Both the position numbers and the translations under genes were made by a program. Under the pieces are notes generated by a model. That model was given only the letters and a program-made list of their open reading frames with translations. It did no database searches and was not told the DNA's origin. Source: Candidatus Nitrosotenuis chungbukensis (lineage in GTDB: Archaea; Thermoproteota; Nitrososphaeria; Nitrososphaerales; Nitrosopumilaceae). From it: a stretch of DNA of 64,000 nucleotides. Below, in pieces: positions 46,965 through 52,192 of this stretch. How positions within the stretch are numbered: the stretch's first letter is position 1; each line of letters begins with the position of its first letter. The stretch is taken from contig NZ_AVSQ01000002.1 of NCBI RefSeq assembly GCF_000685395.1, forward strand, positions 62,001-126,000, written 5' to 3'.

Positions 46965-47075
46965 TTACTTGAATGGTACCCATCCGCCACAAGAGCGACA
47001 GATATTGACCCCGTCTTCGTTTTCGTAGCTTTCAGAACCTGGAGGGCACTGACATTGTGGGATTTGATCTTCCAT
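46965..47075 (-). CDS. 36-aa zinc-ribbon microprotein
   Basis: ATG at 47075 opens 36 codons ending with TAA. The protein reads MEDQIPQCQCPPGSES near the start and CRSCGGWVPFK at the end, so it has Cys8-x-Cys10 and Cys28-x2-Cys31 and could bind one zinc ion. The codon use and the coherent Cys pattern make it a credible gene too small for most annotation pipelines. It lies in an otherwise gene-poor stretch. No function is recognised. Confidence 0.6.
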   Translation of the reverse strand: MEDQIPQCQCPPGSESYENEDGVNICRSCGGWVPFK

Positions 47076-47193
47076 CGGTATGATACGCTGTTGAACCTTT
47101 TAAGATTTTCAGTGACGATTTGTGTTTAGAACTAATAATTACACAAAATATTGTAAAATTTGACTGTTAGAACCATTTCCGAGAGATAGGACT

Positions 47194-47296
47194 GAAGCTG
47201 ACTCGCTGAAAGGCATCTTTTGCTTTGGGCAGACGGGGAGTGTCTACCGGCAAACTGGTGCCGCAACAACACAGGCCTCTATGTCGTGTCAGCTTC
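47194..47296. ncRNA. candidate structured RNA of unknown type
   Basis: A perfect 9-bp inverted repeat (GAAGCTGAC 47194-47202, GTCAGCTTC 47288-47296) closes an 85-base region and is extended inside by a T-T mismatch and two more pairs. Within it lie two adjacent hairpins, AGAC/GTCT (47231-47245) and ACCGG/CTGGT with a CAAA loop (47246-47259). They are enclosed by TTGGGC/GCC-CAA pairing (47225-47230 with 47260-47266, one bulged base), giving a branched fold. The GC content is higher than around it. It does not look like 5S, SRP or RNase P RNA. The strand is unknown; a 74-codon ORF (47167-47391, minus) crosses it but resembles nothing. Confidence 0.4.
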
Positions 47297-47480
47297 TTGT
47301 TGTATAGTACGTTGCCAAAGAAGATAAGGGTGTGTTTGTGCTTTCTGACAATCTGTTCAGGCGCGAATGCGATCACCATCCAAGTGTTCAATTATGTTGG
47401 GAATTAATTAAAAATAATGAACATTTGTATGGCATTACATTATTCAAACAAATGAATTAACAGGTTTTTGATAATTCATC

Positions 47481-47508: not shown

Positions 47509-47652
47509 ATGAGCTATTGTATAGAATGTGGAGACGAAGCAGAAGTCTGCTTTTGTGACTACGAGAAAAAACCAATGGATGAATACATAAAAGCGCTCAA
47601 AGAATGCACAGACCTAAAGTGCTATTGTAAAAAGCACATGCCGGAGAGATGA
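47509..47652 (+). CDS. 47-aa Cys-rich small protein
   Basis: 47 codons with seven Cys and one His: YCIEC, VCFC, KECT and CYCKKH. This spacing suggests one or two zinc or Fe-S sites. The start is set by a TATA box at leaderless distance, and the stop overlaps the next ATG by 4 bases (ATGA). It is the first of three coupled genes. Not recognised; a metal-binding or redox helper for the next two proteins is possible. Confidence 0.72.
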   Translation: MSYCIECGDEAEVCFCDYEKKPMDEYIKALKECTDLKCYCKKHMPER

Positions 47653-47894
47653 TTTTGTCGTCGGCATATGTTCTGATAAACTGTGATCTTGGAGCTGAGG
47701 AAAAAGTAATCACCGAACTAAAGTCAGTCGGAAGGGTAAAGGAAATGCACGGAGTCTTTGGGGCATACGATATCATTGCCAAAGTGGAGGCTCCATCAAG
47801 CGAGATGGTACGTGATATCATCACATCAAGAATTCGAAGCATCGACAGAATTCGCTCTACTCTGACTTTGATGGGAATAGAGGGGCAAGAATGA
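47649..47894 (+). CDS. stand-alone Lrp/AsnC ligand-binding (RAM) domain protein
   Basis: 81 residues matching the C-terminal RAM domain of Lrp/AsnC regulators (YVLINCDLGAEEKVITEL, VFGAYDIIAKVEAPS, IRSIDRIRSTLTLMGI) without a DNA-binding domain. Stand-alone RAM proteins bind small molecules, such as amino acids, and may form heteromers with full Lrp proteins. It overlaps both neighbours by 4 bases, so it works with them in stoichiometric amounts, at least by translation. Confidence 0.85.
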   Translation: MILSSAYVLINCDLGAEEKVITELKSVGRVKEMHGVFGAYDIIAKVEAPSSEMVRDIITSRIRSIDRIRSTLTLMGIEGQE

Positions 47895-48295
47895 AGCCCC
47901 TACTCCACAAAATCCTTTATCCCGGATATGATGAAAAATGCAAACAACTAACAAAAGAAGACGAAATTAGATTTGCCGCAATAATTGACAAGGACGGTAG
48001 GATAGTTGCAGGCGGATTCAAAAAAGGAATCATTCCGCTTGAAAAAGACAAACTTAGACTGGAGGAATTTATGGAGTTCGCGTACGAGATTTCGCAGAGA
48101 AAGTCCTTTGATGAGTCATTAGGTCCAATAAACTACATTGCTGCAAGGAGGGACAAGATTGTTTTAATCAGCTTCCCATTAACGGATCTGACATTGTTGA
48201 TTTCAGCGGATCACACACTTGATATTGAAAAGTTGGCAAGCCATGTAGTAAATGTGTTTGACTCCGAGCAGTCGCGATTCTCTGACGGCACGTAA
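47891..48295 (+). CDS. uncharacterised 134-aa protein, roadblock-like in outline
   Basis: 134 residues with alternating strands and helices: FAAIIDKDGRIVAGGFKKG, EFMEFAYEIS, YIAARRDKIVLISFPLTDLTLLISAD. The layout resembles roadblock/LC7 or profilin-like folds, but I cannot confirm it. I recall similar short proteins from thaumarchaeal genomes, perhaps named DUF6659. The ATG overlaps the RAM stop by 4 bases. Function unknown; the RAM partner suggests a signalling role. Confidence 0.7.
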   Translation: MKPLLHKILYPGYDEKCKQLTKEDEIRFAAIIDKDGRIVAGGFKKGIIPLEKDKLRLEEFMEFAYEISQRKSFDESLGPINYIAARRDKIVLISFPLTDLTLLISADHTLDIEKLASHVVNVFDSEQSRFSDGT

Positions 48296-51973: not shown

Positions 51974-52192
51974 ATGAAATTACACTCTGCAATGTTAAAC
52001 ATTTTTAATAATTACAAATATGCAACCTATTTTGATCTTGCAGTAGACAGCATCGCAATCAAGGTCAAAGAGAGTCACCAGTACGAAAATGTACAGATAA
52101 TCGTCCAACCAAATCGGGAAAATTGCTATTGGCAGATTTTGATCACTGGACTGGTGACTACTCTTTTACTTAGAGCGAAAAAATATCTCTGA
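51974..52192 (+). CDS. weakly supported 72-aa ORF
   Basis: 72 codons from ATG with a hydrophobic stretch near 52-66 (WQILITGLVTTLLLRA). It has no clear TATA box, no recognisable family and a composition like non-coding DNA. It is listed because no competing gene occupies the region 51897-52226. It could be spurious. Confidence 0.25.
   Translation: MKLHSAMLNIFNNYKYATYFDLAVDSIAIKVKESHQYENVQIIVQPNRENCYWQILITGLVTTLLLRAKKYL

Follow-up and report, generated by a model that had tools for sequence, protein, structure and literature searches.

Ammonia-oxidising archaea are among the most abundant archaea of sea and soil, and their small-RNA biology is nearly blank. According to a 2012 review, no member of the phylum had been analysed for small RNAs at that time (PMC3432209). 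Tan1 is described in PMC5069720 as an abundant 229-nt non-coding RNA of marine group II Euryarchaeota. Here, we examined a locus in the window, by which we mean the whole 64-kb stretch of DNA that was analysed. Read on the minus strand, the segment 47194-47296 very probably encodes, as a gene in its own right, a small structured RNA of about 105-115 nt that belongs to a family found so far only in one ammonia-oxidising archaeal family (Nitrosopumilus and its relatives). When 4227 Rfam families were searched at the gathering cut-off, only tRNAs were detected in the window and in the loci of 14 relatives, and nothing was found over the window element up to E 10, in agreement with the initial annotation, which had recognised no common archaeal RNA here. 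No description of the family RNA was found in searches of the open-licence literature or in passages of PMC5069720, PMC2864571 and PMC3432209. Since neither an Rfam fit nor a literature description was found, we consider the RNA to represent a new family of small structured non-coding RNA gene. RNase P RNA, SRP RNA and tRNA were rejected as identities of the element: the genome's own RNase P RNA (RF00373) is at G000:C15 with 187.2 bits and its archaeal SRP RNA (RF01857) at G000:C3 with 110.5 bits, neither family matches at this locus, and the seven tRNAs of the window (ARAGORN, RF00005) all lie away from the element.

The segment had been annotated as strongly foldable, closed by an exact 9-bp helix over 103 bases and richer in G and C than its surroundings. 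The helix is there, formed by GAAGCTGAC (47194-47202) and GTCAGCTTC (47288-47296) with a span of 103 bases, and the G+C content of the element is 0.54, higher than that of the surroundings by eye. The minus-strand fold of 47190-47300 reached -43.1 kcal/mol with a z score of -4.40, and 0 of 200 shuffles were as good; the plus-strand fold of the same interval reached -40.3 kcal/mol with a z score of -2.32. We also scanned the 64-kb window for folding in 1154 tiles of 111 nt on both strands (111-base step, 20 shuffles per tile), and the target element itself was placed manually on each strand. Of the 1154 tiles tested, the best-folding was the minus-strand element (z -5.6), a rank that is somewhat flattering because the target was deliberately centred and the other tiles were not, and the plus-strand element ranked 23rd.

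Using blastn with the segment against the 16 other genomes of the genus, we found near-full-length matches in five, with 91-98% identity over 107-111 bases, short core matches in G012 and G002, and a weaker one in G015. The RNA is 97, 87 and 83% identical in G003, G008 and G006, respectively, and the flanking stretches are 57-78% identical; such conservation above the flanks would speak for selection on the RNA. Nine minus-strand sequences from the window genus were used to build a first covariance model (R1). When 250 family genomes were searched with R1, 42 gave a match at E ≤ 0.5. The matches were strong (E below 1e-10) in 12 of the 17 genomes of the genus, its own genome included, and two further genera, g15 and g18, gave full-length matches with E of about 1e-5 to 1e-3. 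The g15 and g18 sequences share the fold, and the seven that were folded had z scores of -2.2 to -4.8. One R1 match (L068 in G136, 34 nt) was judged to be chance and was left out of the alignments; G136 later gave another, full-length match with R3. A second model (R2), built from g15 and g18 alone with no window-genus sequence, matched the window copy at E 2e-5, the sole significant match in 64 kb (next best 3.8). Against the 250 family genomes, R2 found 99 at E ≤ 0.1 and reached the new genera g4 and g12 with E down to 1e-19. A third model (R3), built from 69 matches, was run on 400 genomes from the order, where it matched 100 in 6 of 66 genera, and on 400 from the class, where it matched 98 in 6 of 82 genera. 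The order and class samples overlap and strict filters may lose weak matches; among the R3 results listed for these two samples, no match fell outside archaeal family f1. The family matches are not all independent, because the models were built from one another (R1, then R2, then R3). The family is much wider than the window locus alone.

Within the genus, the covariance models gave no convincing match in G001, G004, G005 and G010, and although G001 and G005 do have the neighbouring small gene, no RNA was found beside it even with filters off. With filters off, a divergent copy in G016 was found beside this gene at E 7e-6. Several single-contig genomes of g12 were also without the RNA in the R3 search (G135, G155). 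Because the distribution is patchy, with absences in some genus-mates and in single-contig g12 genomes, the RNA is not essential across the family. Divergent members with a quite different P1 helix were observed as well (L112:2954-3067 and L134:3049-3156), and in G181 and G185 such divergent-P1 members lie no more than about 500 bases from a typical copy and are oriented opposite to it. Elsewhere in the window, a second strong fold with a long closing helix (GAGTCACCAGT/ACTGGTGACT) was detected at 52060-52170, with z of about -4.4 on both strands. This stretch is 78-85% identical in the same five close relatives that gave near-full-length blastn matches to the minus-strand RNA, and it overlaps a 72-codon ORF that a one-base gap appears to shift in relatives.

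The conserved fold is three-way: P1 closes the ends, P2 is a short hairpin, and P3, P4 and P5 form a long arm. On the minus strand, the RNA extends from a 5′ end near 47296 to a 3′ end a few bases past 47194, as supported by the covariance models, covariation in six genera and folds. P1 pairs GAAGCUGAC (5′ arm, 47288-47296) with GUCAGCUUC (3′ arm, 47194-47202), and its cells are 96% paired in 66 distinct sequences, with double-sided changes at 9 of 10 pairs. P2 comprises ACGACAUAG (5′ arm, 47279-47287) and CUGUGUUGU (3′ arm, 47266-47274), was located by the minus-strand fold, and has 86.7% of its cells paired with double changes at 3 of 5 pairs; in the window clade it is longer and its loop is different. 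P3 (GGCA, 47259-47262, with UGCC, 47212-47215) is supported by the fold and by a G-C to A-U change on both sides. In P4 (UUUGC, 47250-47254, with GCAAA, 47219-47223), one pair is A-U in 41 and G-C in 22 of the 66 sequences. P5 (GGUAGAC, 47242-47248, with GUCUGCC, 47228-47234) is supported by the fold and by double changes among congeners.

Compensatory changes in relatives proved to be strong. Alignment A7 holds 69 rows, 66 of them distinct, from loci chosen for fetching, a subset of all R2 matches. Over its 29 pairs, 92.2% of the cells in the 66 distinct rows are paired, and 23 of the 29 pairs changed on both sides. Double-change cells numbered 191, whereas the shuffles averaged 65, and not one of the 500 shuffles was as high on any measure; when the partners were slid by 1-3 columns, 29-49% of cells were paired versus 92%. 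The result was the same with P2 left out, and an earlier 27-row alignment (A4) had double-sided changes at 17 of 33 pairs. Both A4 and A7 were fitted to the model and thus lean towards structure, a bias that the slid and shuffled controls address, and the counts for genus g1 in A7 are unfavourable because its P5 arm is out of register. The core changes in G012, G002 and G015 pair on the minus strand and not fully on the plus strand, as in P5, where GGUAGAC/GUCUGCC became GGUGGAA/UUCUACC. In the copy of G015 that adjoins tfe (L049:1501-1633), we observed that the P2 region carries a long insertion and that P1 has diverged, with one A-U pair replaced by U-A in a compensatory manner. In the minus-strand reading of the family alignment, G-U cells exceed A-C cells by 223 to 48, and the RNA strand is therefore minus; the U-G pair of P5, which would be C-A on the plus strand, also favours the minus strand. 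The RNA is encoded on the minus strand, with a conserved fold that differs from the plus-strand fold. The initial proposal of a new non-coding RNA is thus supported by strong conservation and compensatory changes without an Rfam match, while the branching drawn at that time, two hairpins in a bulged helix, survives as a possible plus-strand fold but is not the conserved one.

We found a TATA-like motif (TTTTAT or [TC]TTTTA) at -36 to -20 relative to P1 in 51 of 66 distinct loci, versus 1-5 of 66 in six other intervals, and a GATC at -45 to -30 in 44 of 66 loci, versus 0-7 of 66 in five other intervals. A GCGTA-TAGTA-like element lies downstream of these motifs, before P1. Furthermore, TTTT occurs within about 25 nt past P1 in 45 of 66 loci, versus 28 of 66 in the next 30 nt. 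The putative promoter of the window copy (47302-47329, minus strand) consists of a TATA-like CCTTATCTT at 47321-47329, a weak match, and a AACGTACTATAC element at 47302-47313, which align with the TTTTTAT and GCGTA-TAGTA sequences of other loci. At the sequence level, the family RNA would appear to have its own promoter and terminator, as a small trans-acting RNA gene should. Its TATA promoter would start transcription directly before P1, the T-run would end transcription directly after P1, and the RNA ends would be held in P1 as a result of these start and stop positions. The promoter before P1 and the T-run after it predict a transcript that is about 105-115 nt long and whose ends are paired.

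Several genomes carry more than one R3 copy, with five each in G176 and G178, four in G027, and three in G169, G144 and G207. Two G144 copies share 1310 bases at 99.5% and are probably one locus assembled twice. In a blastn comparison of six multi-copy genomes, the paralogues of G176, G027 and G169 are alike largely over the promoter and RNA only, and in G178, G137 and G144 the likeness extends past the RNA. The stretch shared between two copies is 233 bases in G178 and 421 bases in G137, so the duplicated unit can be larger than the RNA gene.

In the window, 47509-48295 holds a 47-codon cysteine-rich ORF, a stand-alone Lrp/AsnC ligand-binding-domain gene and a DUF6659 gene as divergent neighbours of the RNA, and the order of this gene row is kept beside the RNA in several congeners. 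The 47-codon ORF is present in 14 of the 17 genomes of the genus. We scanned 43 neighbours for Pfam families, hand-picked from 119 listed with near-duplicates dropped, and the families were diverse; Lrp/AsnC-like neighbours accounted for 3 of 43 and DUF6659 neighbours for 2 of 43, and we claim no link of either to the RNA since such genes are probably common in these genomes. On the RNA's strand, a 36-codon cysteine-rich ORF (MEDQ...) lies downstream at 46968-47075 (minus), and its homologue is divergent from the RNA in G015.

The segment could also be read as a cis-acting leader or riboswitch, that is, as the 5′ UTR of a downstream gene such as tfe (transcription factor E). In several congeners tfe begins about 42 nt downstream on the same strand, with same-strand downstream tfe present in G002, G011, G012, G013, G014 and G015, and a DUF72 gene starts about 30 nt downstream in several g12 genomes, both of which would suit a leader. 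However, no tfe follows the RNA in the window, and of the 58 loci scored, 35 have their nearest downstream gene on the same strand and 23 have it on the opposite one, with varied gene families, so that a constant orientation to related downstream genes is not seen. In tfe-linked species, moreover, a TATA-like ATATTAAATATG between the RNA and the tfe start means that tfe probably has its own promoter, and we consider the leader very improbable. It is scarcely believable that the segment is a small protein gene. The 74-codon frame in question (47167-47391, minus strand) remains open in several close relatives, but its start codon is TTG, it has no Pfam match, and it is shifted and stopped in G006, so that the coding homology named at the outset as a refuting result was not found. 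Substitutions show no third-position excess (18/10/20 and 21/8/21 at codon positions 1/2/3 in the two most distant relatives), the frame spans the RNA and its promoter, and its conservation is explained by compensatory changes. An RNA on the plus strand, folded as first annotated, would draw on the symmetry of the closing helix and on the plus-strand z of -2.32; set against the minus-strand z of -4.40, the 223 to 48 ratio of G-U to A-C cells and a promoter motif that reads on the minus strand, it is next to inconceivable.

We favour the stand-alone gene. Paralogues keep the GUAAAGG strand beside P4 and the P5 terminal loop while their stems change, which suggests action in trans through these two parts. 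This is a tentative reading, with a little under an even chance, and the RNA would most likely act by using the two parts to bind a partner, either a protein or one fixed RNA. Of the 69 rows, 62 have UAC in the P5 terminal loop and 39 have UCC in the P2 loop. The window subclade has neither, and its P5 loop is replaced by a C-rich CUCCCC; with both loops changed, the partner or target may therefore have changed there. That the RNA is a multi-copy, lineage-specific regulatory RNP or global sRNA regulator, possibly acting on the transcription machinery, with the window subclade retargeted by swapping two loops on a retained scaffold, is speculative and on balance unlikely. That the RNA is 6S-like and controls the archaeal transcription machinery by DNA mimicry is a guess only and improbable: its compactness, its paired ends, the internal loops of its long arm and its position beside tfe in six congeners would suit such a role, but the window lacks the tfe link, none was seen in the other genera, and no 6S family matches. 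Equally doubtful is a self-cleaving ribozyme or RNA-borne mobile element, to which the dispersed copies, the likeness confined to the RNA gene in some pairs and the conserved internal loops would point. A promoter-like motif accompanies the copies, however, no transposase is among the 25 Pfam families shown for the 43 neighbours, and no viral contig was found with the one exact pattern tried.

The preferred reading, a conserved, multi-copy RNA gene with a defined fold and a predicted promoter of its own, offers a well-defined target for work with cultured strains, and the covariance model allows the family RNA to be counted in metatranscriptomes. Compared with Tan1, it is likewise an unassigned archaeal non-coding RNA of complex structure, but Tan1 belongs to another phylum and is twice the length. 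Archaeal H/ACA guide RNAs resemble the family RNA in having a closing stem of about 10 bp, an upper arm with internal loops and a single-stranded stretch on the 3′ side. Unlike them, the family RNA has a three-way junction and no Rfam snoRNA match above threshold; only 33 of the 66 distinct rows have an ANA box directly past P1, the 7 genus-g1 rows checked, the window's among them, all lack one, and no kink-turn was seen by eye between P3 and P4. With 6S RNA and other polymerase-binding RNAs, it shares a stand-alone gene, paired ends and a long irregular arm, a resemblance only, as the family RNA is shorter, three-way and without a 6S-family match. Finally, although no Rfam 5S match was obtained at E ≤ 10 over the elements tried, the family RNA shares with 5S rRNA a three-way layout, a closing stem and a similar length.
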